This document shows, piece after piece, positions 1,648 to 29,264 of a DNA stretch of 64,000 nt. The DNA comes from Arthrobacter sp. Leaf234 (GTDB lineage: Bacteria > Actinomycetota > Actinomycetes > Actinomycetales > Micrococcaceae), in assembly GCF_001422665.1 (NCBI RefSeq), contig NZ_LMLU01000009.1:62001-126000 (forward strand), written 5' to 3'. The translations under genes and the position numbers were made by a program. How positions within the stretch are numbered: the stretch's first letter is position 1; each line of letters begins with the position of its first letter. The notes beneath the pieces are model-generated. The model was not told the origin of the DNA and searched no databases. It worked only from the letters and a program-made list of their open reading frames with translations.

Positions 1648-2469
1648 TCAGTGGGCGTCGGCGTGCAGTGCGCCTTCGATGTAGATCGCGGCCAGCAGCG
1701 TGAAGACGTAGGCCTGCAGGATCATGATCAGTGCTTCGAGCATGTACATCGCGACGGATCCGACGAGGACCAGGACGCTGGTTCCCTGCAGCAGGATGTT
1801 GCCCGTCATGACCATGTACTCGATGGCCGAACCCGCGAGGGTCACGATCAGGTGGCCCGCGAGCATGGTGGCGAAGAGTCGGAGCGAGTGCGTGACCGGC
1901 CGGACGATGAAGTTCGAGATGATCTCGATCGGCACCACGATCAGCAGGATGTACCAGGGGACACCCGAGGGGACCACGGCCAGCTTGAAGTAGCGGATAC
2001 CGTGCCTCTTCAGGCCGATGCCGACCCAGAGGAAGAAGAAGATGGCGGCGATGCCGTAGGCGCTGCCGGGGTGGGAGAACGTCGGCAGCTGCAGGAAGGG
2101 AACCGCGCCGAAGATGTTGTTCACCAGCACGAAGAAGAACGCGGTGAAAAGCCACGGCACGTACTTCAGGAATTCCTTGCCGCCGATGATGTCCTTGCCG
2201 ATGGAGTTCCGGACGAATCCGTAGGCGGACTCCCCCAGGAACTGCAGCTTGCCGGGCACCAGCTGGTTCCGCCTCGAGGCGACGAGGAAGAAGGCGGCGA
2301 TGAGGACCACCGAGAGGATGGTCAGCAGCATCTGCTTCCCGAAGCCGCCCTCGAGGAGGACGCCGTATTCCCCACCCCAGGGCAGGATGTCCCGGTAGTG
2401 GGTGTCATCGATAGTCGGGGCTACGAATCCCTCTTCGGTAGTTGCGGCCGGGAGCGCAAGCGCGATCAA
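1648..2469 (-). CDS. atpB: F1Fo ATP synthase subunit a
   Basis: Subunit a forms the two proton half-channels beside the c-ring. The 273-residue protein has six or so hydrophobic helices. It carries the essential arginine in SLRLFATMLAGH and the family segments GESAYGFVRNSIG and WLFTAFFFVLVNN. The start is a TTG at 2469, six bases after AGGA (AGAGAGGAAACGCG), which is the only well-placed initiation site; a rare codon here may limit expression. It is followed by atpE after 75 bp. Confidence 0.95.
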   Translation of the reverse strand: MIALALPAATTEEGFVAPTIDDTHYRDILPWGGEYGVLLEGGFGKQMLLTILSVVLIAAFFLVASRRNQLVPGKLQFLGESAYGFVRNSIGKDIIGGKEFLKYVPWLFTAFFFVLVNNIFGAVPFLQLPTFSHPGSAYGIAAIFFFLWVGIGLKRHGIRYFKLAVVPSGVPWYILLIVVPIEIISNFIVRPVTHSLRLFATMLAGHLIVTLAGSAIEYMVMTGNILLQGTSVLVLVGSVAMYMLEALIMILQAYVFTLLAAIYIEGALHADAH

Positions 2470-2551
2470 CGCGTTTCCTCTCTGCAGTGTCCATCGTTGG
2501 GCAAGATCTGTTCGGCCGCGTGACTGGTCCGACTCGTTGAGTTATGGGGAG

Positions 2552-2869
2552 TCACTCGGGTCCTGTACCGGCATCGGGCGTCGGCCGGGATCCGCTCTGC
2601 GGATTCGGCGTATGGTCCCGGGTGAGGTTGTGCATGTGGGAGAGGTAGAAACCGCCCGCTGCACCTAAGAACGCTCCCGCCAGCACCAACCAGCGCGTGT
2701 CGAGGAGATTATCCAGCCACCAGCCTATCAAACTCCACACCAGGATCCCGCCAATGATGTAGCTGAAGACGGCCATCCCGGCGTTGTAGCCGCCGTTGGA
2801 ATAGCGGGCGTCGCCGCTTCCGCGCGGCGTGCCGGGGCCACCGCCAGCTTCCGGTCCTGTCATCGGCAT
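2552..2869 (-). CDS. AtpZ/AtpI-family small membrane protein of the atp operon
   Basis: This 105-residue protein has a Gly/Pro-rich N-terminus, two membrane helices (about 33-52 and 60-80: FSYIIGGILVWSLIGWWLDNL and WLVLAGAFLGAAGGFYLSHM) and a polar tail. That arrangement, directly upstream of atpB, matches the AtpZ family, which is associated with c-ring assembly and magnesium handling. The start ATG is one base after the stop of the preceding gene, so they are co-translated. The family call rests on topology and position; individual residues are poorly conserved. Confidence 0.7.
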   Translation of the reverse strand: MPMTGPEAGGGPGTPRGSGDARYSNGGYNAGMAVFSYIIGGILVWSLIGWWLDNLLDTRWLVLAGAFLGAAGGFYLSHMHNLTRDHTPNPQSGSRPTPDAGTGPE

Positions 2870-2870
2870 G

Positions 2871-3479
2871 TCAGTGTCCTTCCGGTCCGTGCGGGGTGGG
2901 CCGGGCGTCGGCCGGCCCCTCTACAGGCGGCTGCGCGGGGACGTGCCCGGGCTGGGTCCGGGGCTCCTCGCCGTCGCCGTACAGGGGGGTACGGAGGCGC
3001 GAGAAGGCGATGACCTCGGCGACCTGCCAGGCGATGACGGTGGCGAGTGCCCCGCTGAAGAACCAGGTGCGGTCCAGCCATCCCGGCGTTCCCAGGAAGA
3101 ACAGCACGGCGGCGAACCCCACGACCTTGATGGCGTAGGTGACGGCGAAGAGGCCGAGTGCCCCGGACGGATTGGTGCGGCCCGCATAGTGGCCGATCAG
3201 GAGGCTGATACCGAAGAAGGCGACGACGAGCGCCGCTCCGGAGAGGACGCTGAGACCGGCTGCGGGCGACGTCGCCACGGTCGCGACGACGGCCAGGCCC
3301 ACGGCGATCGCTCCCCCGGCCCCGGCGCTCCGTGCCAGGATCCCGAGCCAGGGTGACGCCGTCGCTCCCGATGCCGGCACGATGTGGGCCTGGTCGGGTC
3401 CTGTGGCCGGCTCATCCGGTCGTGGCACGTCATGTCCGCTCTGTCGGCTGCGCCGTCCGGCGCCCTGCTGGTCCTCCAC
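2871..3479 (-). CDS. AtpI-like four-helix membrane protein, first gene of the atp operon
   Basis: The 202-residue protein has a disordered N-terminus of about 40 residues, four predicted membrane helices (about 45-68, 76-95, 108-128, 138-156), and a Pro-rich cytoplasmic tail. Position as the first gene before AtpZ-like and atpB, plus the four-helix layout, matches the AtpI (ATP synthase protein I) superfamily, which helps c-ring assembly. The GTG start at 3479 lacks an obvious ribosome site. The function is inferred from synteny; sequence identity to characterised AtpI cannot be judged here. Confidence 0.65.
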   Translation of the reverse strand: MEDQQGAGRRSRQSGHDVPRPDEPATGPDQAHIVPASGATASPWLGILARSAGAGGAIAVGLAVVATVATSPAAGLSVLSGAALVVAFFGISLLIGHYAGRTNPSGALGLFAVTYAIKVVGFAAVLFFLGTPGWLDRTWFFSGALATVIAWQVAEVIAFSRLRTPLYGDGEEPRTQPGHVPAQPPVEGPADARPTPHGPEGH

Positions 3480-3689
3480 CGACGGCGTCGGGAGGGCTGT
3501 ACCGGATCGGCGGGACGGATAATCACCGCGCCCGGCGCATGGAATTCTACCGTACCCGCGCTGCGCCCCCTCTGCCGTCCGGCCTCCGGCACCGGCTCCC
3601 GCCGCCCCACCGGACGTCCCCGGCGATCCGCCGCCCCCGGCCCTTCACGGCTTCCTGGGCTCCCGCCTCCCCCGCCACAGTGCCTGCGA

Positions 3690-4712
3690 TCAGGCGCCCG
3701 CAGCGACCCGTCGGCGGGCCGCGGCGCGGAAGATCCGCGGCGAGTAGAGGTACACGGCGACGACGGCGGCGGCGAACAGGGACGCCGACACCGCGAGCGG
3801 CGCGGGTGCCGTGGCGAGCACGAAGCCCGCTGCTCCGGTCAGGGCGGACAGCACGGAGACGAGGACGGAGACCTGTACGTGGGAGAGTCCCGTGTCCGTG
3901 AGTCGCTGGTAGACGTGCTGGCGGTGCGCCGTCGAGAGGCGTTCGCCGCGCCGCGCGCGCCGGAGGAACGTGGTGAAGGTGTCGGCGAGGTAGATGAGGA
4001 CCGGCGAGAGCAGGTATTCCAGGTACACCCCTGCGAGCAGGCCGGTCACGGCGATCGCCGCGATGGAGGCGCCGAGCAGATAGCTGCCGACGTCGCCGAG
4101 GAAGACGAACCCGCGGCCGAGGTTCCAGGGCAGGAACCCCGCGAAGGCCGCCGCCACCACGAGTCCGGCGACGGTGAGCCAGAGCTGGTCCGACAGCACG
4201 CCGGCCCAGGCATAGAAGAGGCCGACCACGAGGCCGTGCATACCGGAGATGCCGTTGATGCCGTCCATGAAATTGGCTGCGTTGATGTAGGTGGCGACCG
4301 CGACGGCGCCGACCGGGATCCACCAGTAGCTGCTGTCGTCGATCGTCGTCGCCAGGGCGGCGGTACCGACCGCACCGATGAGCAGCTGGGTCGCCAGCCT
4401 GACCCGGACGGACAGTCCGCGGAAGTCCTCGATCCACCCCAGGGCGGACGCCGCGGCCACCAGCACGAGGATCACCAGGATCAGCGACCGGTCGACGGCG
4501 ACGAGGCCCGTCGCGAGCGAGAGGGCGAGGGCCACGAGGATCGCGAGCGAGACCGCGAGGCCCATGCCGCGCAGGACGACCGTGCTGTGCGAGGAGCGGG
4601 TGTTCGGGATGTCGATCACGCCGAGCCGCCGGAGCAGCGGCCTGACGGCGAAGGGCAACAGGAGCGAGAGGACGAGCGCGATCAGGCCGATCACGACCAG
4701 CAGCGTGGTCAT
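3690..4712 (-). CDS. polyprenyl-phosphate phosphosugar transferase, WecA/WbpL type
   Basis: Enzymes of this MraY-like family transfer a sugar 1-phosphate from a UDP-sugar to undecaprenyl phosphate, starting a lipid-linked glycan. The 340-residue protein is almost entirely membrane helices. It keeps the family's cytoplasmic motifs: NTRSSHS with a following RGMG near the N-terminus, the Asp-containing NFMDGINGISG, FLGDVGS, and the basic HRQHVYQRL loop. RSSH and HxxHxYQRL are closer to WbpL than to WecA/TagO (recalled family knowledge). The ATG at 4712 overlaps the stop of the dehydratase gene (ATGA). Pairing with a WbpM-type dehydratase suggests the substrate is a 4-keto-6-deoxy-derived N-acetylamino sugar. 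Confidence 0.85.
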   Translation of the reverse strand: MTTLLVVIGLIALVLSLLLPFAVRPLLRRLGVIDIPNTRSSHSTVVLRGMGLAVSLAILVALALSLATGLVAVDRSLILVILVLVAAASALGWIEDFRGLSVRVRLATQLLIGAVGTAALATTIDDSSYWWIPVGAVAVATYINAANFMDGINGISGMHGLVVGLFYAWAGVLSDQLWLTVAGLVVAAAFAGFLPWNLGRGFVFLGDVGSYLLGASIAAIAVTGLLAGVYLEYLLSPVLIYLADTFTTFLRRARRGERLSTAHRQHVYQRLTDTGLSHVQVSVLVSVLSALTGAAGFVLATAPAPLAVSASLFAAAVVAVYLYSPRIFRAAARRRVAAGA

Positions 4713-6694
4713 GGCGTCGTCCCGCCGGACCCCGAGGTGGAGGACGCGGACGGACGGGATGCCGCGGAACGTGCGTCGTGACCGCGGTCGTCGGACCGCG
4801 TCGGACCGTCCGGCGCCGATCCTGCGGGAGCCTCCAGCTCCGTCGCCGCATCGAGGGAGGCGATGCTGCGGTGATCGTGGCCGAAGCCGCCCTCGGCCTT
4901 CCACGCCTGCAGGTCCAGCTGCTGCGGGTCGAGGGCCACGACGGAGGTGTGCGAGATCTTCGGATGCAGCGGGCGCGAGTCGTCCTCGCCGACGCCCATG
5001 AGGTCCTCGTGCATCTTCTCGCCGGGGCGCAGCCCGGTGAAGACGATGTCGATGTCCTTGCCGGACATCGCGATCATGCGCTGGGCGACGTCGAGGATCC
5101 GGACCGCCTCCCCCATGTCGAGGATCAGGACCTCCCCGCCCCTGCCGATGGCACCGGCCTGCACCACGAGCTGGCATGCCTCGGGGATGGTCATGAAGAA
5201 GCGCGTCACCTCCGGGTCCGTCACGGTGATGGGACCGCCGGTGCGGATCTGCTCCGTGAACAGCGGCAGCATGGAGCCGCGGCTGCCGATCACGTTGCCG
5301 AACCTGACGGAGACGTACTGCTGCCCGGTCCGCTGGGCGTGGTGGGACGTGAGCTTCTCGGCGACGCGCTTGGAGTGGCCGAGGACGCTGGTGGGGTCCG
5401 CGGCCTTGTCCGTCGAGATGTTCACGAAGTTCGTCACCCCCACCGAGGCGGACGCCCGCAGCACGTTCAGCGAGCCCTGCACGTTCGTCTTCCAGGCCTC
5501 CTCCGGGTACTGCTCGAGGAGGGAGACGTGCTTGAGTGCCGCGGCGTGGAAGACGACCTGCGGCTTGCGGTCCTCGAAGATGTCCAGCAGTGCGTCCGCG
5601 TCCCGGATGTCCGCGAGGACGGTGTCGCGGCCGGTCAGCAGTCCCCGTCCCGTGAGGGAGATCTGCGTGGACTGGAGGCCCGTCTCGTCACGGTCGAGCA
5701 TGATCAGCTCGGCCGGGGCGAACGCGGACAGCTGGCGGCACAGCTCGGAGCCGATCGAGCCGCCCGCTCCCGTCACGAGCACGCGCTTGCCGGTGATGTA
5801 GCCGGCCACCTCGTCCGGGTGGATGTCCACCGGACGGCGTCCGATGAGGTCCTCGACCGCGACCTCACGGAAGTCGGCGATGGCCGGGCCCGAGGCACCC
5901 AGCATGTCGCGCAGCGGCGGGAGGACGAGCACCTTGATGCCGAGGCCCGCGACGAGGTCGGAGACGCGACGCACCTGGGCTGCCTCGACCCCGGCGAAGG
6001 CGATGACCAGGAGCGAGGCCTGCGTCCTCGCCACGACCTCGCGCAGATCGTCGATCCGTCCGAGGACCGGCACCGAGGAGAGGCGGAGGTGCTTCTTGGC
6101 GGGATCGTCGTCGATCAGGCCGACGGGGAAGTAGGGCGATCCGGGGTCCTGCATCATGCGGACCACCAGGGAGTTGCCGAGGAAACCGGCACCGTAGATG
6201 AGCGTCCGCTGCGCATCCTCGCCCGGCTTGGCCTTGCTCTCCACGTACATCCGCTTGAGGTACCGGGTCGCTGCGAGGAACATGCAGGCGAACGGGAAGG
6301 CGATGATGCCGATGCTGCGCGGGACCTCGATGACGGTGAAGAAGGCGACGCTGACGAGGACGAGGATGACGCCGACCAGCACCGCGACGATGACGAGGAG
6401 CTTCGCCTCGTGGAAGCTGCCGAAGCTGTACCTGCCCCGGTAGAGCGCGAAGCTCAGTCCGACGACCAGCTGTGCCAGGACCGCGACCGCGCAGAAGGCC
6501 GCGATACCGGGGACATTGACCTCCTTCACGAGCAGCTCGTACCTCAGGATGAGGGCCAGGAGGATCGCGACGATCCAGGCGGCGGCGTCCAGCAGGTACT
6601 GCGACCACAGCCAGATGGCGGGTTTGTCGCCGCTCGACCCGACGGCGGTGGAGCCGGATGTCCGGGCCGCGGCCCGTCCTTCGTTGAGTCCCAT
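4709..6694 (-). CDS. membrane-bound UDP-sugar 4,6-dehydratase/epimerase, WbpM/CapD type
   Basis: The 661-residue protein has four N-terminal membrane helices (about 25-135), a CoA-binding-like Rossmann domain (GAGFLGNS near residue 160), and a C-terminal NAD(P)-binding catalytic domain starting at GAGGSIGS near residue 310. The family STDKA motif and downstream Lys (LGHSK) are present. The position that is Tyr in FlaA1-like and Met in WbpM-like enzymes of the Y/M-x3-K motif is Leu here. It likely converts a UDP-HexNAc to a 4-keto-6-deoxy sugar for the coupled transferase. The C-terminal tail of about 60 residues is Ser/Gly/Pro-rich and disordered. Confidence 0.85.
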   Translation of the reverse strand: MGLNEGRAAARTSGSTAVGSSGDKPAIWLWSQYLLDAAAWIVAILLALILRYELLVKEVNVPGIAAFCAVAVLAQLVVGLSFALYRGRYSFGSFHEAKLLVIVAVLVGVILVLVSVAFFTVIEVPRSIGIIAFPFACMFLAATRYLKRMYVESKAKPGEDAQRTLIYGAGFLGNSLVVRMMQDPGSPYFPVGLIDDDPAKKHLRLSSVPVLGRIDDLREVVARTQASLLVIAFAGVEAAQVRRVSDLVAGLGIKVLVLPPLRDMLGASGPAIADFREVAVEDLIGRRPVDIHPDEVAGYITGKRVLVTGAGGSIGSELCRQLSAFAPAELIMLDRDETGLQSTQISLTGRGLLTGRDTVLADIRDADALLDIFEDRKPQVVFHAAALKHVSLLEQYPEEAWKTNVQGSLNVLRASASVGVTNFVNISTDKAADPTSVLGHSKRVAEKLTSHHAQRTGQQYVSVRFGNVIGSRGSMLPLFTEQIRTGGPITVTDPEVTRFFMTIPEACQLVVQAGAIGRGGEVLILDMGEAVRILDVAQRMIAMSGKDIDIVFTGLRPGEKMHEDLMGVGEDDSRPLHPKISHTSVVALDPQQLDLQAWKAEGGFGHDHRSIASLDAATELEAPAGSAPDGPTRSDDRGHDARSAASRPSASSTSGSGGTTP

Positions 6695-18856: not shown

Positions 18857-20415
18857 GCGGTCTGTGAAGCTCCTGGATCCGGGGCGGCTACTGCTGGTGA
18901 GGGCTGGGCGGTCTCGCGCTGGACATCCCTGCGGAACAGGTCCTCCTCGGTCTCGCCGCGGACGATCAGTCGGGCCGCACCGTCGACGACCGCCACGACC
19001 GGAGGCCGCGCCAGGTAGTTGTAGTTGCTCGAGAGCACCCAGCAGTAGGCTCCCGTTCCCGGGACGGCGAGGAGGTCACCTGCTCCGGTGTCCTCCGGGA
19101 GGTAGACGTCCCGCACCACAATGTCACCGCTCTCGCAGTGTTTTCCAACCACACGGGACAGGACGGGCGGCCCCTCGGGCGTCCGCGAGGCGAGGACGGC
19201 CGAGTAATCCGCGCCGTAGAGCACCGGACGGGCGTTGTCGCTCATCCCGCCGTCCACCGACACATAGCGTCGCGGGTGCGTAACGGAGGTGTCCTGCACC
19301 ACCTCGGAGCCGTTGGCGGCTGCGTCGACGCGCACGGTCTTCGTGGTGCCCGCGGTGTAGAGGGTGAAGGTCGTCGGTCCCACGATGGCACGGCCGGGCT
19401 CGATCGAGATCCGGGGGACGCGCAGGCCGAGCTCACGGCAGGCGGAGCCGACGACGGTGGCCATCGCGCGGGCGATCTCCGCCGCGGGCCGCGGCTGGTC
19501 GGCCTCGGTGTAGGCGATGCCGTAGCCGCCGCCGAGGTCCAGTTCGGGCAGCTCGACGCCGTGCCGGTCACGGACCCCGGCGAGGAAAACGAGCAGCCGG
19601 CGGGCCGCCAGCTCGAAGCCCTCCGATTCGAAGATCTGCGAGCCGATGTGGCAGTGCACACCGAGGAGGTTGATGCCCGGATGGGCCAGGGCGTCGGCGA
19701 CGGCCCGCGCGGCCGGGGAGGAGCCGCCGTCGTCCTGTCCGTCCTGCTGCCCGGGCCCCTGCTCGGTGGTGAGCGACAGCCCGAACTTCTGGTCCTCGTG
19801 GGCGGTGGCGATGAACTCGTGCGTGTGGGCGTGGACGCCGGGCGTCAGGCGGATCATCACGTTGGCGCGGCGGCCGCGTTCGACGGCGAGGTCACCCACC
19901 AGGGCGACCTCCTGGAGGCTGTCGACGACGATCCGGCCGAGGTCCGCGTCGATGGCCCGCGTGATCTCCGCAGCGGACTTGTTGTTGCCGTGCAGGCCCA
20001 GGCGGTTCCCGGGCATGCCGGCGCGCAGGCCCACGGCGAGTTCGCCGCCGGAGCAGGTGTCGAGGCCGAGGCCCTCCTCGCGGACCCAGTGGGCCACTTC
20101 GGTGCAGATGAAGGATTTGCCCGCGTAGAAGACGTCCACTCCCCCGCACAGATCGCGGAAGGCGTCGTCGAACGCGTCGCGGAAGGTGGCGGCCCGGGTG
20201 CGGAAGTCCCGCTCGGACATCACGAACAGCGGGGTGCCGAACTCGGCGGCGAGGTCGGCGACGGAGACGCCGTCGATCCGCAGGACGCCGTCGCTCCCGC
20301 GCGCGACGTCCTCGGCCCAGAGCTTCGCGTCCAGCCGGGCAGGTTCCGCCGGGACGGACAGCCAGTCTGGCGCGAGGGGCGAGGGGCGGGTGGGGTCCAC
20401 GACGGTCACGGTCAC
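18853..20415 (-). CDS. lysA: diaminopimelate decarboxylase
   Basis: LysA makes lysine from meso-diaminopimelate. The 520-residue fold III PLP enzyme has [15 protein letters not shown] with the PLP lysine, the CSGGEL substrate motif, [10 protein letters not shown], and the C-terminal CESGDI. It is somewhat long because of an N-terminal extension and a Gln/Gly/Asp-rich insertion (near [14 protein letters not shown]). The GTG start at 20415 overlaps the argS stop (GTGA). argS-lysA is a conserved actinobacterial pair. Confidence 0.95.
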
Positions 20416-22061
20416 ATCCTCTCCGGTGCCGATACCCCGAGGAGCCCGAGGCCGTTCGCGAGGACCTGCTGCGTGGCGTTGTTCAGCCAGAGGCGCGAGC
20501 GGTGGACGTCCTCGACCGGGGCGTCGCCCAGCGGGGACACGCGGCAGGCGTCGTACCAGCGGTGGTAGGTGCCGGCGATCACCTCGAGGTGGCGGGCCAC
20601 GCGGTGCGGTTCGCGGAAGGTCGCGGACTGGGCGACGACGCCCGGGAACTGCCCGAGGGCAGCGAGCAGCGCCCCTTCCGTCGGGTGCGCCAGTGCCGCG
20701 GCGTCGAAGGACCTGGTGTCCACACCCGCGGAGACGGCGTTGCGCGCCACGGCGTGCGTCCTGGCGTGGGCGTACTGCACGTAGAACACCGGGTTCTCGT
20801 TGGTGTGCCGGGTCAGGAGGTCCAGGTCGATGTCGATATTCGAATCGGCGGAGAAGCGGGCCAGCGTGTAGCGCGCGGCGTCGACGCCAACTGCGTCCAC
20901 GAGGTCTTCGAGCGTGACGACCGTTCCTGCGCGCTTCGACATGCGCACCGGTGCGCCGTCCTTCACGAGGTTCACCAGCTGGCCGATCAGGACCTCCACG
21001 GCATCGGGATCGTCACCCAAGGCAGCCGCCGCGGCCTTCAGGCGCGCCACGTACCCGTGGTGGTCCGCCCCGAGCATGATGATGTTGAGGTCGAAGCCAC
21101 GGTTCCGCTTGTTGACGAAGTACCCGATGTCTCCGGCGATGTAGGCGGGCGCGCCGTTCGACTTGATCACCACGCGGTCCCGGTCGTCGCCGTAGTCGGT
21201 GGACCTCAGCCACCAGGCGCCGTCCTCGAGGAAGAGGTTGCCGGACGCCTTGAGCTTGTCGAGGAGGTCCTCGACGAAATCGTTCTCGAACAGCGAGTGC
21301 TCGTGGAAGTACACGTCGAAGTCCACGCCGAAATCATGCAGGGACGCCTTGATGTCCGAGAACATGAGGTCCACGCCGATCTCCCTGAACCGCTCGACGG
21401 ACGCCGGTCCGTCGAGGGCCAGCGCGTCGGGATCGGCGGCGAGGACACGCTGGGCTATGTCGACGATGTACTGGCCGCTGTAGCCGTCCTCCGGGGCCGG
21501 ATCGCCGTTGGCGGAGGCGTGGAGTGAGCGGGCGAAGCGGTCGATCTGCGCGCCGTGGTCGTTGAAGTAGTACTCGCGGGTGACCTCCGCACCCTGCGAC
21601 TGCAGGATCCGCGCGAGTGCGTCCCCGACGGCCGCCCAGCGGGTCCCTCCGATGTGGATGGGACCGGTCGGGTTGGCGGAGACGAATTCGAGGTTGATCT
21701 TCCGGCCCGCGAGCGCATCGTTGGTGCCGTAGGCCTGGCCCGCCTCGACGATGGTGCGGGCGAGCTCACCCGCGGCACCGGCGTCGAGCGTGATGTTGAG
21801 GAAGCCCGGACCGGCGATGTCGACGCTCCTGACGCCCTCGATGCCCGCGAGGCGGTCGCTGAGCAGCTGCGCGAACTCCCGGGGGTTCATCCCGGCCTTC
21901 TTGCCGAGCTGCAGCGCGATGTTCGTGGCCCAGTCCCCGTGCTCCCGGTTCTTCGGTCGCTCCACCCGCACCTCGGAGGGGAGGTCGATGGTCAGGTCAC
22001 CGGCGTCGACGGCGGCCCTGAGGCAGGCGGAAATAGCGGAGGAGAGTTCTTCGGGAGTCAC
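20412..22061 (-). CDS. argS: arginyl-tRNA synthetase
   Basis: ArgS charges tRNA-Arg. The 549-residue class I synthetase has the N-terminal Arg-tRNA D-loop domain, the HIGH-like [12 protein letters not shown], the KMSKS-equivalent [11 protein letters not shown], and the C-terminal DALR anticodon-binding domain. The GTG start at 22061 sits six bases after a TATGCT -10 box, so the mRNA probably begins at the start codon. No ribosome site is visible, consistent with that. Confidence 0.97.
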
Positions 22062-22073: not shown

Positions 22074-22311
22074 GCCGCGGCGCCCCGTCCGCCCTGATTC
22101 GCGTGACGCGGCGAGCGCCTGCGGCACAGGCGCGAATCCGCCCCACGGGTCTGCCGACCGGTGCGCGGCCGGTACAGTCCGGAAGGCCGGGAGAAACGAA
22201 TGGAGTCATGGGACGTTGAAATGCATCAGTGGCTCTCCTCGACATCCACGCCTCCCTCGGTGCGGAGCCCTTCCGCCCGGTCCCGCCACCGCGATCCACC
22301 AGGAGCATCCA

Positions 22312-22860
22312 GTGACCATGACAGGCCAGACCGAAACACCCCTGATGACGGCGCCGGCGCGGGCCGGGTTCCCCCTCCACAAGCGCGTCCTGACGGCGCT
22401 CGCCGCCGTGTCCATTCTCGGTGCGGCCGGCTGCGCCGGCGCCGAGGCCGAGACCCCGGCCGCCGAAGCTCCCGCGGCGGAATCCTCCGCAGCCGATGCC
22501 ACCGAGGCACCCGGAGCGGCACCGACCGGGGCAGCGACCGCGGACGCCGCCGCAGCGGACCAGAGCTACGAGGACGGCACCTACACCCAGACGGGCGGCT
22601 ACCAGTCCCCCGCCGGCCCCGAGGAGGTCGGCGTGACCCTGACACTGGCGGCCGATGTCGTGACCGCCGTCGAGGTGGAGCCGATGCCGGACAACCCCAC
22701 CACCACGATGTACCAGGAGCGTTTCGCCGGTGGGATCTCGGACGCGATCGTCGGGAAGAAACTCGACGAGCTCGCCGTGGACAAGGTCGCCGGGTCCTCC
22801 CTGACCAGCGGCGGCTTCAACGAAGCGGCCGACAAGATCAAGAGCGAAGCACAGCTGTAG
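22312..22860 (+). CDS. FMN-binding-domain lipoprotein, probable ApbE substrate
   Basis: The 182-residue protein starts at a GTG with AGGAG six bases upstream. It has a membrane-targeting segment ending in AAGC (Cys41, an imperfect lipobox), an Ala/Pro/Thr-rich linker to about residue 85, and a small FMN_bind domain (GTYTQTGGYQSP to the end). The usual flavinylation motif D-x-x-S/T-G-A-T-x-T reads DKVAGSSLT at residues 157-165, so the acceptor position is Ser163 and the neighbouring Ala is Ser. Genes for ApbE and an NqrB/RnfD-like reductase follow directly. I infer a flavin electron carrier on the outer membrane face; flavin attachment is unproven. Confidence 0.8.
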   Translation: MTMTGQTETPLMTAPARAGFPLHKRVLTALAAVSILGAAGCAGAEAETPAAEAPAAESSAADATEAPGAAPTGAATADAAAADQSYEDGTYTQTGGYQSPAGPEEVGVTLTLAADVVTAVEVEPMPDNPTTTMYQERFAGGISDAIVGKKLDELAVDKVAGSSLTSGGFNEAADKIKSEAQL

Positions 22861-22871
22861 GGCGCAGCGGC

Positions 22872-23732
22872 GTGGGGCACTCCTTCAGCTTCGAGGCGAT
22901 CGGTACGGCCTGGCGCGTGGACAGTGCCGCGCCGCTCCTGGCCGCCCAGAAGGCCGGCCTCCTCCGCATCGCCGAGGACTACGACGCGCTGTACTCCCGC
23001 TTCCGCGCCGACTCCGGCATCACCGAGCTGGCGGCCTCAGGGGGCTCCCTCTCCCTGCCGGGGCACGGCGCCCGGCTGGGGCGCCTCCTGCGCACGCTGC
23101 ACGACGTCACCGGCGGCGGCGTGTCCCCCCTGGTCGGCGAGCGCCTCGCCGACCAGGGCTACGACGCCGGATACAGCTTCGTCCCTACCGCGGCACCGGC
23201 GCCCGCGAGAGCCTGGGACGGCCTCCTCGAGTGGACGGAGGACGGCGTGAGCCTCGCGGCCCCGGCGCTCCTCGACGTCGGCGCCGCAGGCAAGGGGCAA
23301 CTCGTGGACCTGATGCTCGAGTACCTCCTCGCGGCCGGGCACGGGCAGGCGGTCGTCGACGCCAGCGGTGACATGCGACGGGCCGGCAGCGGCTCCATCA
23401 CGGTGGCCCTCGAACACCCCTACGATCCGTCGTCGGCCATCGGCACGGTCGTGCTCACCGAGGGGGCGCTGTGCGCCTCGGCGTCGAACCGCCGGGTCTG
23501 GGGTGACGGACTGCACCACGTCCTGGATGCCCGGACAGGGCACTGCGTCGACACGGTCGTCGCCACGTGGGTCCTCGCAGCCGACGCCATGACCGCCGAC
23601 GGACTGTGCACGGCCCTGTTCGTCACCGACCCCGCGGACCTCGCCGGGTCCTTCGACTTCGACTTCGTCCTGATGTACTCCGACGGACGCGCCCGCTATT
23701 CCGCCCCACTCGCAGGAGCACTGTTCTCATGA
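22872..23732 (+). CDS. apbE: FAD:protein FMN transferase (ApbE family)
   Basis: ApbE attaches FMN from FAD to Thr/Ser of exported proteins. The 286-residue protein has the opening FSFEAIGTAWRV, the segment ALLDVGAAGKGQLVD matching the family's D-x-G-x-x-x-K-G-x-x-V-D motif, and the C-terminal metal and substrate loop (HHVLDARTGHCVDTVVATWVLAADAMTADGL, shown in part by DARTG and AADAMTADG). No obvious signal peptide is seen. The GTG at 22872, 11 bases after the lipoprotein stop, has a weak ribosome site; translation is probably coupled. Confidence 0.88.
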   Translation: MGHSFSFEAIGTAWRVDSAAPLLAAQKAGLLRIAEDYDALYSRFRADSGITELAASGGSLSLPGHGARLGRLLRTLHDVTGGGVSPLVGERLADQGYDAGYSFVPTAAPAPARAWDGLLEWTEDGVSLAAPALLDVGAAGKGQLVDLMLEYLLAAGHGQAVVDASGDMRRAGSGSITVALEHPYDPSSAIGTVVLTEGALCASASNRRVWGDGLHHVLDARTGHCVDTVVATWVLAADAMTADGLCTALFVTDPADLAGSFDFDFVLMYSDGRARYSAPLAGALFS

Positions 23733-25240
23733 CCGCAGCACTCGACGGCCTGCTGGGCCGCATGACCATGTACCGCCTGACCCTGGGCCTGCTGCTCCTG
23801 CTGACCGTCGAGGCCCTCGTGCTCTCGCTGACAGGACTGCTCGCCTACACCCCGGCCGAGATCGGCGGCACCCTCGTGGCCGCCGTGGGAGGGACGATCA
23901 TCGGGACGCGGCTCATGGCGCTGATCCTGCGGCTGCGCCCGCACGGCGACTCGTCGCTCATCACCGGGCTGATCGTCTTCCTCATCATGTTCCCCTCCAG
24001 CACGGCTGCGGGCCTCGGCGGCATCCTCACGGCGGGCGTCGCGGCCGGAGCGTCCAAGTTCCTCCTCGCCTTCCGCGGCCGCCACATCTTCAACCCCGCA
24101 GCCACGGGGGCCGTCGTCGCGACCCTGCTGGGGGTCGGCGCGGCGGCCTGGTGGGTGGCGAACGCGTACATGCTGCCGGTCGTCGCGCTCGGCGCCGCCC
24201 TGCTGCTCCACCGGACGCGGAAGCTGTCCATGGGTGCGGTGTTCCTCGTCGTCGCCCTCGGGATCCTGCTCGTCGGCCTGGTGCAGGGCGGGCTGACCGC
24301 CGGTGCAGGACTCCAGCTGGTCCTGACGTCCTACCCGGTCCTGTTCCTGCTCGGCTTCATGATGACCGAGCCCCTGACGCTCCCCCCGCTGCGCTGGCAG
24401 CAATGGCTCTTTGCCGCGATCGTCGCCGCCGTCTTCGCCCTGCAGGTATCCGTCGGACCCGTATTCCTCGGACCGGAGTTCGCGCTCGTCATCGGTAACG
24501 CCGTCGCGTTCCTGATGGGCCAGCGACGCGGTGTCCGGCTCTCCTTCGCCGGGTCGCGACAGCTGACGCCCACGAGCACGGAGCTCGTCTTCGAACCGGC
24601 CCGTCCCGTGCGCTTCACCGCGGGGCAGTACATGGAACTGTCCATGCCGCACCGCGGGGCGGACAGCCGTGGCAGCCGCCGCGTCTTCAGCATCACGTCC
24701 GCACCCCAGCAGGCCGACGCCGTCACCTTCGGGTTGCGCACCACGGCGCAGGGGAGCTCGTTCAAGAAGGCCCTGCTCGAGCTGCCGAAGGACGCCCACA
24801 TCACCGGGACCCTCGTGGGCGGCGACTTCCGCCTGCCGCGGGATGCGTCCGTCCCGCTCCTGCTGGCCGCCGGCGGGATCGGTGTCACCCCCTTCATCAG
24901 CCAGCTCAGGGACATCGCCGCACGCGGGGAGGACCGCGACATCGTGCTCGTGTACGTGGTGCGCAGCGCCGAGGAGATCGCCTTCCGGGATGAACTGGCC
25001 GGACTCGGTACGCGCGTGGTGCTCTTCGTCCCGGCCGACGACGGCGTTCCGGCGGTCCCCGGCACCTGGACCCTCGCGGGGAGCGGGCTCTCCTCCGAGG
25101 AGCTGCTCGCAGCCGTCCCCGACCTCAAGCGACGCCGGGTCCTGGTCTCCGGGTCGCCGGCGTTCATCGGGGACCTCCGCCGCGTGGTCCGCACCGCCGG
25201 GGTCTCCCGGGTGCGGACGGACGCTTTCCTGGGGTACTGA
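23729..25240 (+). CDS. NqrB/RnfD-like membrane protein fused to ferredoxin-NAD(P)-reductase domain
   Basis: The 503-residue protein has about ten membrane helices in residues 1-270. NqrB/RnfD-like segments are visible: HIFNPAATGAVVA and GFMMTEPLTLPP. A cytosolic FNR domain follows from about residue 275, with the FAD motif RRVFSITS, FTAGQYMEL, the nucleotide-binding AAGGIGVTPF and the terminal TDAFLGY. The membrane part has no SGAT flavinylation site. It should move electrons between cytosolic NAD(P)H or a reduced carrier and the flavin lipoprotein. The ATG at 23729 overlaps the apbE stop (ATGA), forming a three-gene unit. Confidence 0.82.
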   Translation: MTAALDGLLGRMTMYRLTLGLLLLLTVEALVLSLTGLLAYTPAEIGGTLVAAVGGTIIGTRLMALILRLRPHGDSSLITGLIVFLIMFPSSTAAGLGGILTAGVAAGASKFLLAFRGRHIFNPAATGAVVATLLGVGAAAWWVANAYMLPVVALGAALLLHRTRKLSMGAVFLVVALGILLVGLVQGGLTAGAGLQLVLTSYPVLFLLGFMMTEPLTLPPLRWQQWLFAAIVAAVFALQVSVGPVFLGPEFALVIGNAVAFLMGQRRGVRLSFAGSRQLTPTSTELVFEPARPVRFTAGQYMELSMPHRGADSRGSRRVFSITSAPQQADAVTFGLRTTAQGSSFKKALLELPKDAHITGTLVGGDFRLPRDASVPLLLAAGGIGVTPFISQLRDIAARGEDRDIVLVYVVRSAEEIAFRDELAGLGTRVVLFVPADDGVPAVPGTWTLAGSGLSSEELLAAVPDLKRRRVLVSGSPAFIGDLRRVVRTAGVSRVRTDAFLGY

Positions 25241-25270
25241 GGCGTGGACCGACCGGGTCCGGCCCGTGCG

Positions 25271-25337: not shown

Positions 25338-25410
25338 GCCTTCGTAGCTCAGGGGATAGAGCGTCTGCCTCCGGAGCAGAAGGTCGTAGGTTCGAATCCT
25401 ATCGAGGGCA
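25338..25410 (+). tRNA. tRNA-Arg(CCG)
   Basis: The 73-base sequence folds as a complete cloverleaf. The acceptor stem is GCCTTCG / CGAGGGC with one G-U pair, the D loop is AGCTCAGGGGATAGAGC, the anticodon stem TCTGC/GCAGA flanks CTCCGGA (anticodon CCG), and the T loop is GGTTCGAATCC. It decodes CGG. The discriminator is A and the 3' CCA is not encoded. The 3' end borders the 120-bp gap before the DUF4129 gene; no integrated element is seen there. Confidence 0.95.
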
Positions 25411-25530
25411 CCCCGGACTCCCACGGAGTCAACCGCCGTCGGCCCACCGGGCCGGGGGCGGTTCTGCTTTTGGTAGGCTCCACTGGACGCGGCCCCCGGG
25501 GCTGCACCAGCACCGACCGGCGGGGGAATC

Positions 25531-26310
25531 GTGGGGACGAAGCGCAGGTCGCGGCATCCGCATCCCCGCGTGGACGCACCTACGCTCCTCACCGTCGTCG
25601 TCCTCGTCCTCGCGGTGGTCGCCGCCGGCTTCATGGGCCGGCTGACGGCCCAGCCGGTCATCGACGCGCCCGTCGCCACCGCCACGCAGGAGAGCACCGC
25701 CGAACCCACACCAGCCGTGAGCGGCCCCGCGGAACCGGTCCCGGACGCCGAGCGGCTGATCATCAGCGGCGACACCGCGGCGGGTGCGATCCTCCTCCTC
25801 GTCATGATCGGCCTCGCCCTCCTCGTCCGGCTGCTCCTGCGGATCAGGCGGCGCCCGGAGCGTGACGGCAGCCCCGAGCCGACCGGCCTGCAGCAGGCCG
25901 GATCGCCCGGCCTCGTCGACGACGTGCTCCCTTCATGGACCGAGGACGCCGAACGCGCCCTCACGGACAGTGCCGACACCTCGGACGCGGTGATCCGCTG
26001 CTGGCTCGCCTTCGAGGACCTGTGCGCGGCAGCGGGCGTGGGCCGGACTCCCGCGCAGACCACCTCCGACTTCGCCGCCGCCGCCGCGTCCGCCCTCGAT
26101 CTTCCGCCCCGGCCGCTCACGGTCCTGAACCGTCTCTACCAGCGGGCGAGATTCAGCGCGTCGGGTCCGCACCCCGACGCCACCGACCCCAAGATGACCG
26201 CTCCCGGCGCGGCGGGTGCGCACCTCGACGCCGCGGACCGCGAGCTGGCGCTGGCCTGCGTCCGGGCACTGTCCGCCGCCGTCGCAGCTCGCACCGGTCC
26301 TGCGCGGTGA
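25531..26310 (+). CDS. DUF4129-domain membrane protein
   Basis: The 259-residue protein has two membrane helices (about 18-38 and 83-105) around an extracytoplasmic Thr/Pro-rich loop. A C-terminal cytoplasmic DUF4129 domain follows (IRCWLAFEDLCAAAGVGRTP, then LTVLNRLYQRARFS). DUF4129 genes regularly sit beside moxR and DUF58 genes, as here; the system's function in actinobacteria is not established. The start is a GTG preceded by GGGGG. It overlaps the next gene by GTGA. Confidence 0.75.
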   Translation: MGTKRRSRHPHPRVDAPTLLTVVVLVLAVVAAGFMGRLTAQPVIDAPVATATQESTAEPTPAVSGPAEPVPDAERLIISGDTAAGAILLLVMIGLALLVRLLLRIRRRPERDGSPEPTGLQQAGSPGLVDDVLPSWTEDAERALTDSADTSDAVIRCWLAFEDLCAAAGVGRTPAQTTSDFAAAAASALDLPPRPLTVLNRLYQRARFSASGPHPDATDPKMTAPGAAGAHLDAADRELALACVRALSAAVAARTGPAR

Positions 26311-26783
26311 AGCGCTCGGCCTGGGCTGTCACGGCTGTCCTCGTGGTCCTCGCGGGCGTCTCCGCCTGGTTCTTCGGGCTCGATCCCCGGCACGCCGTGG
26401 TGCTGGTCGGCGCGGCCTTCGCGGCAGGCATCGCCGACGGCCTCCTCGAGGCGGTCGACGTCCCCCGGGCCCGGCTGACGCCACTGCCCGTCCCCGTCCG
26501 TGGCCTCGCGGAGATCCAGGCGCTGGAATTCTCGCTCTCCTCGGCGGACCCCGGGATGCGTGCCGTCCTCGAGGTCCACGGGCTGGCCGCCGACGCCGCC
26601 CGTGCCCGTCCCGACGTGCCGAGGAGCCCGTCCTTCGACGCCTTCGTCGCACAGTCCCAGCCCGCACCCCTCGACCACCGCACCCTGCGCTCCCTCGCCG
26701 ACGAGCTGGAGCGGATCGTCCTCTCGCCGCGTGCCACGGATGCCGCGCCGCCGCCCTCGAACAACTCTCAGGAGACCCGATGA
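26307..26783 (+). CDS. small membrane protein of the MoxR-DUF58 operon
   Basis: This 158-residue protein has two adjacent hydrophobic helices (about 4-22 and 28-46) and a mostly helical cytoplasmic tail. I recognise no family. Its overlaps (GTGA with the DUF4129 gene, ATGA with moxR) show it is translated as part of the operon, so it is probably a structural partner of the DUF58/DUF4129 proteins. Confidence 0.7.
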   Translation: MKRSAWAVTAVLVVLAGVSAWFFGLDPRHAVVLVGAAFAAGIADGLLEAVDVPRARLTPLPVPVRGLAEIQALEFSLSSADPGMRAVLEVHGLAADAARARPDVPRSPSFDAFVAQSQPAPLDHRTLRSLADELERIVLSPRATDAAPPPSNNSQETR

Positions 26784-27859
26784 CCGCAGCAGACACCGCC
26801 CGCAGTTCCGGTGACCACGGACGCCGCATCGGCGCCGACGAGGCAGCCCGCATCGGCGCGCAGGTCATCGAGCGCACCGCCACCGTCGTCGTCGGCGCCG
26901 GGGGCGCCCTGCGCCTGGCCCTCGCGGCCGTCCTCGCGGGGGGACACGTCCTCTTCGAGGACCTGCCCGGACTCGGCAAGACCCTCGCGGCCAAGACGCT
27001 TGCGCAGGCGCTCGGCCTCGACTTCCGGCGCCTCCAGTTCACGCCTGACCTGCTGCCCTCGGACGTCACCGGTTCGTCGATCTTCAATCCGGGCACGCGC
27101 GAGTTCGAGTTCCGGGCGGGGCCCATCTTCGCCGGGCTGTTCCTCGCCGACGAGATCAACCGGACCTCGCCGAAGACGCAGTCGGCGCTGCTGGAGGCCA
27201 TGGCGGAGGCACAGGTCTCGGCCGAGGGCACCACCCTCCCGCTGCGGCGCCCGTTCCATGTCTTCGCGACGTCCAACCCCATCGAGTTCGAGGGGACCTA
27301 CCCCCTGCCCGAGGCTCAGCTGGACCGTTTCATGGTCCGGCTGCGCTTCGGCTATCCCGGCGCGGGCGGCGAACAGGACATCATCGCGCGTCGCCTGGCA
27401 CGCCGGCGCGACGAGACCCTCGTGGAGAGCGTGACCACCGCGGACGGACTGCTGGACCTCCAGGCCGCCGTCGAGTCGGTGCTGGTGGACGACGACGTCA
27501 TCGACTACGCCGTGCGCCTCACCGCCGCGACGCGCACCCACCCGGCCGTCGAGGTCGGGGCATCGCCCCGCGGCTCACAGGCGCTCGTGCTGCTCGGCCG
27601 GGCTCTGGCCGTGCTCGACGGCCGCGCCTTCGTGCTCCCCGAGGACGTGAAGGAAGGCGCCGTGGCCGTGCTCGCGCACCGGCTCACGCTCACGCCGTCG
27701 GCCTGGGCGCAGGGCGTGGCGACGGAGAAGGTGGTGCAGGACGTCCTCGCCGAGGTCCCGACACCTCCGACCGTGCACCGAGGGACCGTGGATGAGACCG
27801 TGGACGAGAGCGTGATCGAGGGCGAGATCGAGGGCGGGCGGGGCGCGCACCGTGGCTGA
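26780..27859 (+). CDS. MoxR-family AAA+ ATPase
   Basis: MoxR ATPases act as chaperones that insert metals or assemble complexes, usually with a VWA or DUF58 partner. The 359-residue protein has Walker A DLPGLGKT (residues 61-68), Walker B LFLADEIN, the arginine-containing INRTSPKTQSALLEAM segment and sensor ATSNPIEFEG, followed by the AAA lid. The last 25 residues are an acidic, disordered tail. It overlaps the DUF58 gene by 8 bases. Confidence 0.9.
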   Translation: MTAADTARSSGDHGRRIGADEAARIGAQVIERTATVVVGAGGALRLALAAVLAGGHVLFEDLPGLGKTLAAKTLAQALGLDFRRLQFTPDLLPSDVTGSSIFNPGTREFEFRAGPIFAGLFLADEINRTSPKTQSALLEAMAEAQVSAEGTTLPLRRPFHVFATSNPIEFEGTYPLPEAQLDRFMVRLRFGYPGAGGEQDIIARRLARRRDETLVESVTTADGLLDLQAAVESVLVDDDVIDYAVRLTAATRTHPAVEVGASPRGSQALVLLGRALAVLDGRAFVLPEDVKEGAVAVLAHRLTLTPSAWAQGVATEKVVQDVLAEVPTPPTVHRGTVDETVDESVIEGEIEGGRGAHRG

Positions 27860-29264
27860 CACTCCGGGCGGCCACTCCCCCGGGTGGGCCCTCGCCGTGA
27901 TCCTCGCCCTGGTGTGCGTGGTCTCCGGACTGGTGTCGGGACGGCCGGACACCGTGGCACTGGGTGCGCCGCTCGTGCTCCTCGCCCTCGCCGGACGCAG
28001 GGCCCAGGTGCGCAGGACGGTGCATCCGTCCTTCTCCCTCGATCGACGCGGGCAGCAGCAGGGCGGTCGCCTGCGGCTGCTGCTGGCACCACCCGGCACC
28101 GACTCCGGGACGCCGCGCACCAGCCTGGTCGCAGCCGTCCTCGCAGCGCCCGGCTGCGCCCCCGACGTCCTGGTGCTCAGGGAGGGCGAGGAATGCCCGG
28201 TGCTCGCGGACGGACCGCTGTCGGGCGAGGTCGAGATCCTGTCCTACGGGACCCTCGGTTTCACCCCGGATCTCACGCACGCGTCCGCCTTCCACCCGGC
28301 GCCACCCGTCCGCGTCAGCATCCTCCCTCCCATCGGGTCCCTGCTCGCGCGGCCCGTCTCGCGTCGACTCGTCGGCCTGGCCGGCACGCACGGCTCGAGG
28401 CGTCCCGGGGAGGGAGCGGAGCTGAGGACCATCGCGCCCCTCGAGCCCGGTGACCAGCTCCGGCGGATCGACTGGCGCTCCACCGCGCGCCGCTCGACCG
28501 ACCAGGACCGCCTGATGGTCCGCCGATCCTTCGCCGACGCCGAGGCCTCGGTCCTGCTCGTGATCGACCAGGGACACGACCTGCCCGCGTCGACCTCCGA
28601 CTGGTTCGCGGCGGGATCACCCCGGCTGGTGACGGGATCGCTGCACGGTGCCAGGACGGCGGCGGCGACGATCGCGGCCTCGTACCTGGCGGCCGGCGAC
28701 CGCGTGGGACTGGACGATCTCGGCGGGACGCGCCGCGCGCTGCGCACGGCCTCGGGCGCCCGGCACCTCGAGCAGATCCGCGCCCGCCTGGCGGCCACCG
28801 GGGTGGTTCCCCGCCGACGGCGACGGCGCGATCCCGTGCCGCCGCAGGGCGCCGTCGTCGTGGTGCTGTCCGCGTTCCTGGACCCCGAACCGGGACGCCT
28901 GCTGAAGCTCTGGCACGCCCGGGGGCACGTGGTGATCGGGGTCGACTGCGTCCCTGTGCTGGAACGGACCGAGGCCACGCCGGCGCAGGAGAGGACCGTG
29001 CGGCTGACCCTGCTGCGGCGTCGCCTCCTCCTCGAGGACCTGCACCGGGACGGCATCGCCGTGGTGGACGGCTCCGTGGTGGAGGGACTCCTGGCCGACC
29101 GGGACCGGATGGCAGCACCCCCTGCGGCGTCCGGCACGACAGCTCCGTCCGGTCGGGACCGACCGGCGCGCCAGGCCGATCTTGCGGTCGGTCCCGACCT
29201 GTCCCTCCCGACCGGCTTCCGCCTCCTCGCCCGCCGTGGCCGCCCTCCGGGGGTGCGGCCGTGA
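27852..29264 (+). CDS. DUF58-domain protein
   Basis: The 470-residue protein has two N-terminal membrane helices (about 11-30 and 33-50), a variable beta-rich middle, and the DUF58 core (GDQLRRIDWRSTARRS, then LMVRRSFADAE and LLVIDQGHD), which is a VWA-like fold. DUF58 proteins partner MoxR. The GTG start overlaps moxR. The C-terminal 60 residues are low complexity. Confidence 0.85.
   Translation: MADTPGGHSPGWALAVILALVCVVSGLVSGRPDTVALGAPLVLLALAGRRAQVRRTVHPSFSLDRRGQQQGGRLRLLLAPPGTDSGTPRTSLVAAVLAAPGCAPDVLVLREGEECPVLADGPLSGEVEILSYGTLGFTPDLTHASAFHPAPPVRVSILPPIGSLLARPVSRRLVGLAGTHGSRRPGEGAELRTIAPLEPGDQLRRIDWRSTARRSTDQDRLMVRRSFADAEASVLLVIDQGHDLPASTSDWFAAGSPRLVTGSLHGARTAAATIAASYLAAGDRVGLDDLGGTRRALRTASGARHLEQIRARLAATGVVPRRRRRRDPVPPQGAVVVVLSAFLDPEPGRLLKLWHARGHVVIGVDCVPVLERTEATPAQERTVRLTLLRRRLLLEDLHRDGIAVVDGSVVEGLLADRDRMAAPPAASGTTAPSGRDRPARQADLAVGPDLSLPTGFRLLARRGRPPGVRP

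Follow-up and report, generated by a model that had tools for sequence, protein, structure and literature searches.

The locus

The subject of this report is a cluster of three co-directional genes within a 64,000-nucleotide stretch, hereafter the window, of contig 9 of the 3.52 Mb genome of Arthrobacter sp. Leaf234. The genes encode, in order, a lipoprotein of the FMN_bind type (FMN, flavin mononucleotide), an ApbE flavin transferase and a single-chain protein in which an NqrB/RnfD-like membrane domain is fused to a ferredoxin-reductase-type domain (Table 1). They occupy 2.9 kb as one tight cluster between the divergent argS gene and a tRNA-Arg(CCG) gene. A gap of 11 nt separates the lipoprotein stop codon from the apbE start, and the apbE stop and fusion start overlap by 4 nt (ATGA). 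A preliminary description of this DNA had reported three tightly coupled genes in 2.9 kb, and this is what is seen, all of the open reading frames (ORFs) being present at the coordinates tabulated. The GTG start of the lipoprotein gene at 22312 is supported by the conservation of a CAGGAGCA-N5-TGACC block that spans it, which is kept in 10/10 aligned sequences of the genus; in a single one of these the start codon is ATG.

Table 1. Features of the three-gene cluster and its surroundings, in window coordinates
Feature	Position	Strand	Basis
FMN_bind-type lipoprotein of 182 aa, starting with GTG; lipobox Cys41 (codon 22432-22434) in its signal region	22312..22860	+	
Ser163 codon, within VAGSSLTS, aligned with flavinylated Thr of [S/T]GAT	22798..22800	+	weak 8p2a alignment, E 0.26
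ApbE flavin transferase, 286 aa, GTG start, no visible signal peptide, triad S203/H216/D243	22872..23732	+	
Fusion gene, ATG start, membrane and reductase domains	23729..25240	+	
NqrB/RnfD-like membrane domain of fusion, residues 1-268	23729..24532	+	profile, model, Foldseek
Asn122 codon, FNPA motif, proposed riboflavin-type site	24092..24094	+	aligned with FNPA of RnfD 8ahx_D
Short loop 135-148, presumed outer, invariant Trp141-Trp142, replacing the longer covalent-FMN linker of RnfD	24131..24172	+	
Glu214 codon, TEPLT motif, aligned with Asp of TDPVT in RnfD	24368..24370	+	
FAD/NAD(P)H-binding ferredoxin-reductase-type domain of fusion, RVFSI at 318, GGIG at 382	24533..25240	+	
argS	20412-22061	minus	Pfam scan of window copy
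Upstream element GAAAC-N16-CGTT, possible ECF-type promoter (weak)	22193..22217	+	
tRNA-Arg(CCG)	25338-25412		

Family and fold of the three proteins

The window ApbE scores 102.9 bits with Pfam PF02424 (cut-off 25.6) and the fusion protein 27.3 bits with NAD_binding_1 (PF00175), above the cut-off of 22. The lipoprotein reaches 15.7 bits as a whole and 18.3 bits as the domain alone with FMN_bind (PF04205), where the gathering cut-off is 22, and the Pfam scan of the fusion gave no match to NQR2_RnfD_RnfE (PF03116) at E<=1. The relatives strengthen both of these weak calls, as PF04205 matches 36/41 of their lipoprotein domains (best 3e-6) and PF03116 matches 11/43 of their membrane domains (best 6e-10), both at E<=0.01. 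A profile of the membrane domains searched against the PDB has a single match at E<=10, which is the Rnf subunit D 8ahx_D (E 0.02).

A model of the whole fusion (predicted local distance difference test score, pLDDT, 88.9; predicted template-modelling score, pTM, 0.75) resembles reductases in Foldseek, the top 50 including FNR-type enzymes with NqrF among them, and flavohaemoglobin reductases also being resembled. Since this search listed reductase-type proteins, the membrane domain was modelled by itself with AlphaFold2 (pLDDT 93.6). Ranks 1-15 are then all Rnf/Nqr chains D or B, that is RnfD or NqrB (E 2.9e-5 to 6.6e-3, TMq 0.56-0.73), below which come urea transporters, from E 0.067 upwards. 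Judged on its model, the membrane domain of the fusion is RnfD/NqrB by fold. The earlier designation of the trio as FMN_bind lipoprotein, ApbE and one-chain NqrB/RnfD-reductase fusion is backed by Pfam, by the profiles of the relatives and by Foldseek.

Conservation and distribution

The relatives were drawn from several sets. The named set came from a scan that gave 569 pattern stretches, 541 of which encode relatives, and the best 80 were kept, so that it holds the closest relatives and is not a random sample. The complete trio is present in 77/80 of these loci and the remaining 3 are cut by contig ends; the arrangement is therefore not due to chance. Within the genus the trio occurs in 29/30 loci (own included), the other one being again cut by a contig end, and the fusion is present in 32/34 of the other genus genomes examined. 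The genus and named sets overlap, hence their counts are not additive. Across the family, 67/245 genomes (own included), from 9/32 genera, match the fusion at E<=1e-20, and 18/19 loci from other genera of the family carry the complete trio. The preliminary description had stated that its reading would fail if the three genes were not conserved together, and these counts bear its expectation out. At the level of the phylum the threshold was E<=1e-30, and 16/396 genomes match. In 8 of these the match extends over most of the profile, interrupted in one case by an in-frame stop, and in the other 8 it is confined to the reductase domain. The closest named relatives over the fusion are Arthrobacter bussei (96% identity), A. 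cheniae (89%) and A. ruber (86%).

A few sequences in these sets are irregular. The fusion is split over two matches in genome G194 (contig 1, 1209730-1211240) and carries an in-frame TAA in genome G580 (locus L168), each a possible pseudogene or assembly error. An Arthrobacter-like locus, 86% identical over the fusion, is held by WNZI01000018.1, which is titled Vibrio cholerae strain 35D and is probably a mislabelled assembly.

The membrane domain and the fusion protein

The alignment of the membrane domain to the RnfD profile skips from RnfD residue 144 to 220, leaving RnfD 145-219 unaligned. In RnfD of Clostridium tetanomorphum, as described in PMC9588780, the linker 140-190 bears Thr153 with its covalent FMN, and Asn124 and Asp248 flank a riboflavin that lies in the cytoplasmic half. 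The linker stretch corresponds in the fusion to a loop of only 14 residues in which the two tryptophans are invariant, and a motif of the [S/T]GA[S/T] type was found in 0/43 membrane domains, so that no covalent-FMN site like that of NqrB/RnfD could be seen. The FNPA motif with Asn122 aligns with the FNPA of RnfD and the TEPLT motif with Glu214 aligns with TDPVT, and the two would be the equivalents of the residues that flank the riboflavin in the C. tetanomorphum protein. Since the linker for the covalent FMN is shortened, the flavin of the membrane domain is probably a non-covalent one.

The window fusion sequence contains no cysteine and therefore no iron-sulphur cluster. Arginine and lysine residues lie on one side of the membrane domain, in every second loop and at the adjoining helix ends, an arrangement that fits a cytosolic reductase domain. 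Subunits of the RnfA/E or NqrD/E type (PF02508) gave 0 matches in the own genome. The 'complete path' in three proteins claimed in the preliminary description stands in outline, but the claim skipped the transmembrane step, for which the covalent-FMN site was not found and the fusion offers no cysteine.

The lipoprotein and its motif

Near its C-terminal end the lipoprotein carries the sequence VAGSSLTS. Over 77 lipoproteins the core of this motif reads [AGS][GS]-S-S-L-[T 74, S 2, A 1]-S; the two serines and the leucine are present in 77/77, and the position that corresponds to the flavin acceptor is a serine in 77/77 relatives. In two of 18 family rows the pattern had been placed wrongly, and the serine counts from these were not used. 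The threonine of SSLT was considered as the flavin acceptor and rejected, because it is the second serine that the alignment to the FMN-binding domain of 8p2a makes equivalent to the flavinylated residue. In another family of the phylum, the FMN-binding proteins of two trio loci have the canonical motifs VSGATNTS (L167) and VTGATNTS (L166); the ApbE of L167 starts directly at its domain and that of L166 is interrupted by unread letters.

A lipobox together with a hydrophobic stretch is found in 71/77 scored lipoproteins, and it is from the lipobox that export of the protein would follow. The signal region of the window lipoprotein has KR and lacks RR, and RR before the lipobox occurs in 16/71 relatives. 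This twin-arginine is not conserved, and export by the twin-arginine translocation (Tat) pathway was for that reason rejected as an answer to the leaderless ApbE described below.

ApbE and its missing leader

The triad of the window ApbE, Ser203-His216-Asp243, was aligned with that of 6nxi and is invariant in 18/18 aligned sequences; in Vibrio cholerae numbering the triad is 241-257-285 (PMC12052999). A tree of 99 ApbEs places the 29 trio rows together as a single group (100/100) with a long stem, apart from the MsrQ-type ApbE of the own genome. For the tree, 30 trio loci were chosen from all those fetched, and four short rows, including the trio ApbE of L167, were removed.

An export leader was scored as a hydrophobic 15-mer (Kyte-Doolittle >=1.8) in the N-terminal extension, a measure of hydropathy only and hence a rough proxy for signal-peptide prediction. 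By this score a leader is present in 0/78 of the named trio ApbEs (two were not examinable, and L099 of the 78 is cut at its start), in 0/29 of the genus, 0/18 of the family and 0/5 of the other-family trio ApbEs. It is also present in 0/36 ApbEs of the class, whilst among ApbEs elsewhere in the phylum it is found in 17/26 best-scoring sequences (4 not examinable) and in 0/7 of a second set. Judging by the class sample and the second phylum set, leaderless ApbEs are the rule across the sampled class, occur beyond it too and are not special to the trio system. A second, exported ApbE in the own genome was looked for and rejected: at E<=0.001 PF02424 has three matches there, one to the window gene and the other two to in-frame pieces of a single contig 6 gene, and this other ApbE gene is leaderless as well.

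A puzzle results, which the preliminary description had missed, since an exported protein is to carry covalent FMN and both ApbEs found in the cell are seemingly inside. In PMC12052999 most ApbEs are described as secreted and cytosolic ones are given only with intracellular substrates, and the flavin transferases are taken as extracellular in a paper on a Streptomyces multi-FMN protein (PMC10339131). Among open-licence PMC papers, a literature search for flavinylation before export or for a leaderless ApbE with an exported substrate, also in Arthrobacter, found no description in the portions of text available.

The own genome holds a second flavinylation cluster, apparently MsrQ-like (contig 6, 50000-64000; L052; also L001 and L002), which comprises two FMN_bind proteins with the motifs SGSTYTS and SGATYTS, a reductase domain and the second leaderless ApbE.

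Comparison with known systems

The architecture of the trio has already been published as the NQR/RNF-like flavinylation system by Meheust et al. in 2021 (PMC8238504) and in mSystems in 2024 (PMC11334425), and was reported mainly from Actinobacteria and the candidate phyla radiation (CPR) (PMC8238504). As in the window, an NqrB/RnfD-like domain is fused to PF00175 and adjoins an extracytosolic FMN-binding protein. The flow of electrons from NAD(P)H to the outside has also been proposed in print, with which the direction assumed in the preliminary description agrees. That description also noted that surveys describe related systems, and relatives are indeed published, but this understated the case because the same architecture has itself been described. 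The proposed electron path is therefore not new. According to the accessible text of PMC11334425, members of the NQR/RNF-like group have no flavinylation site and an apparent non-covalent flavin site, with docking of the FMN of a partner, the docking being put forward for the complex from Ktedonobacter. The cluster described here has the adjacent exported FMN-binding protein and apbE, lacks the covalent-FMN site, and combines in one chain an N-terminal NqrB/RnfD-homologous domain with a C-terminal PF00175 domain. The PF03116 match that the paper also uses to define the system is absent from the window protein.

In this last respect the branch differs from the published system, as the window protein and 32/43 relatives fall below PF03116 at E<=0.01, with the probable result that surveys in which PF03116 is mandatory would overlook most members. 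It also differs in the GSSL motif with its serine and in the leaderless ApbE, neither of which appears in the parts of the published descriptions at hand. The locus thereby adds a divergent actinobacterial branch mostly missed by Pfam, with a motif of the serine type and an ApbE group of its own, and it raises the topological puzzle of a leaderless ApbE whose substrate is exported. With three well-conserved genes in 2.9 kb, the locus is a readily testable representative of a system for which the support in the published text available consists of gene-cluster and model evidence.

Rnf and Na+-Nqr have homologous membrane, FMN-bearing and FAD/NADH parts (RnfD/NqrB, RnfG/NqrC and NqrF). Unlike these complexes, the trio consists of one fusion and one lipoprotein, no RnfA/E or NqrD/E was found, the covalent-FMN linker is shortened and the electron flow is presumed to be one-way rather than semicircular. 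The MsrQ-like clusters of Actinobacteria likewise combine exported FMN-binding proteins with apbE and an NAD-binding domain, but their membrane protein is described as a haem protein and is not NqrB/RnfD-like (PMC8238504); the apparent one in the own genome is set apart from the trio by its SGA/STYTS motifs and by an ApbE in a different tree group. The cytosolic ApbE of Klebsiella pneumoniae shares the lack of a signal peptide, but its substrate is given as a soluble cytosolic fumarate reductase (PMC12052999), whereas here the substrate has a lipoprotein export signal.

Proposed electron path and alternatives

The operon can with good confidence be regarded as a minimal NQR/RNF-like electron exporter, in which ApbE would flavinylate Ser163 in the cytosol and the lipoprotein would reduce an acceptor outside. 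Cytosolic NAD(P)H would reduce flavin adenine dinucleotide (FAD) in the C-terminal reductase domain, as the family suggests. The electron would then pass to a non-covalent, riboflavin-like flavin near Asn122 and Glu214, and from there to the FMN on the lipoprotein, which probably docks in an outer-leaflet pocket opened by the shortened linker. The reduced lipoprotein would finally hand its electrons to an acceptor beyond the membrane. The dedicated ApbE is predicted to attach the FMN to Ser163, and to do so in the cytosol, either ahead of Sec export or while it proceeds. It is the lack of an export signal in both ApbEs of the genome, together with the non-conserved twin-arginine of the lipoproteins, that points to attachment in the cytosol. 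More tentatively, and with confidence a little short of even, it may be proposed that in the trio system, and probably in Actinomycetes generally, the leaderless ApbE loads FMN at the GSS-L of the nascent or unfolded preprotein and that the modified chain then passes through Sec. If true, this would reverse the accepted order, in which export comes first and flavinylation takes place outside, and would make the export of FAD unneeded.

Several points weigh against this interpretation. The alignment that places Ser163 at the position of the flavinylated threonine of SGAT in 8p2a is a weak match (E 0.26), the motif is [AGS][GS]SSL instead of the [S/T]GA[S/T] of FMN_bind, and ApbE prefers threonine, being described as modifying serine too but less efficiently when it replaces threonine (PMC12052999). 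The membrane domain has a glutamate where an aspartate lines the riboflavin in RnfD. One clear exception to the trio exists in L042, the single incomplete locus from the other genera of the family, where the fusion gene has no lipoprotein or ApbE within 6 kb, and in L122 (Glaciihabitans sp. dw_435, 2122-5944) the trio is interrupted, the lipoprotein lying about 2.4 kb from apbE. Among the identified neighbour clusters there is also no hint of an acceptor or partner, but unassigned clusters, for example those in 27, 26, 23 and 19 loci, could hide a partner. The suggestion in the preliminary description that the acceptor may be novel gains nothing from this, as nothing found identifies any acceptor.

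Three other explanations have been considered. The leaderless ApbE might leave the cell by a non-classical route and flavinylate the lipoprotein after its export, as in other bacteria, which would be in keeping with most characterised ApbEs being lipoproteins outside the membrane (PMC12052999) and with the assumption of an outside ApbE in the discussion of the Streptomyces multi-FMN protein (PMC10339131). This is unlikely, given that 78/78 named trio and 36/36 class ApbEs have no hydrophobic N-terminal stretch. Furthermore, FAD is made within the cell. The departure of [AGS][GS]SSL from [S/T]GA[S/T], and the cytosolic substrate reported for the leaderless Klebsiella enzyme (PMC12052999), would alternatively be accommodated if the lipoprotein had lost its covalent flavin, the motif being a relic and ApbE serving another, cytosolic substrate. 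However, 77/77 lipoproteins keep Ser-Ser-Leu despite variation in other parts, none of the 77 is without an accompanying apbE (spaced in L122) and flavinylation of serine is possible (PMC12052999), which leaves the loss of the flavin improbable.

There is likewise only a small chance that redox-driven ion pumping or NAD(P)H:quinone reduction is an additional or even the main role of the fusion. Its fold and motifs are those of NqrB/RnfD, which handles ions and quinones within its complexes, and a partnerless fusion does occur (L042), but the own genome yields no NqrD/E-type subunit, RnfD's outer linker for covalent FMN is lacking, and the regular association with lipoprotein and ApbE points outward.

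Neighbouring genes and regulation

The neighbourhood was surveyed by clustering ORFs in the 72 named loci that exceed 10 kb. The clusters obtained are the trio or its shadow frames, two clusters on the minus strand (37 and 36 loci), and patchier ones. By position and length the two minus-strand clusters are argS and lysA, the Pfam scan having covered the window copies only. Three members of the patchier clusters were assigned by Pfam to isocitrate dehydrogenase, GNAT and an ABC transporter, and were set aside as none of them points to an acceptor.

Upstream of the lipoprotein gene the element GAAAC-N16-CGTT is conserved in close relatives. It may be a promoter of the extracytoplasmic function (ECF) sigma factor type, a weak lead. 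An ECF-type pattern occurs in 9/75 loci, all from Arthrobacter, where shuffling gives a mean of 0.7 (maximum 4), and two other such patterns in 8/75 (shuffled mean 2.3, maximum 7) and 1/75 (mean 0.8). A scan for sigma-70 promoters found none. A DtxR/IdeR-type iron box has no match in the window at up to 3 mismatches. Iron assimilation is suggested by Meheust et al. for six clusters with VIT1 (PMC8238504).

Past the tRNA gene lie DUF4129, MoxR-type AAA and DUF58 genes in a row (25531-29264), without an evident tie to the trio. Directly 3' of the fusion gene there is a terminator-like hairpin (25254-25266), which would end the operon ahead of tRNA-Arg.

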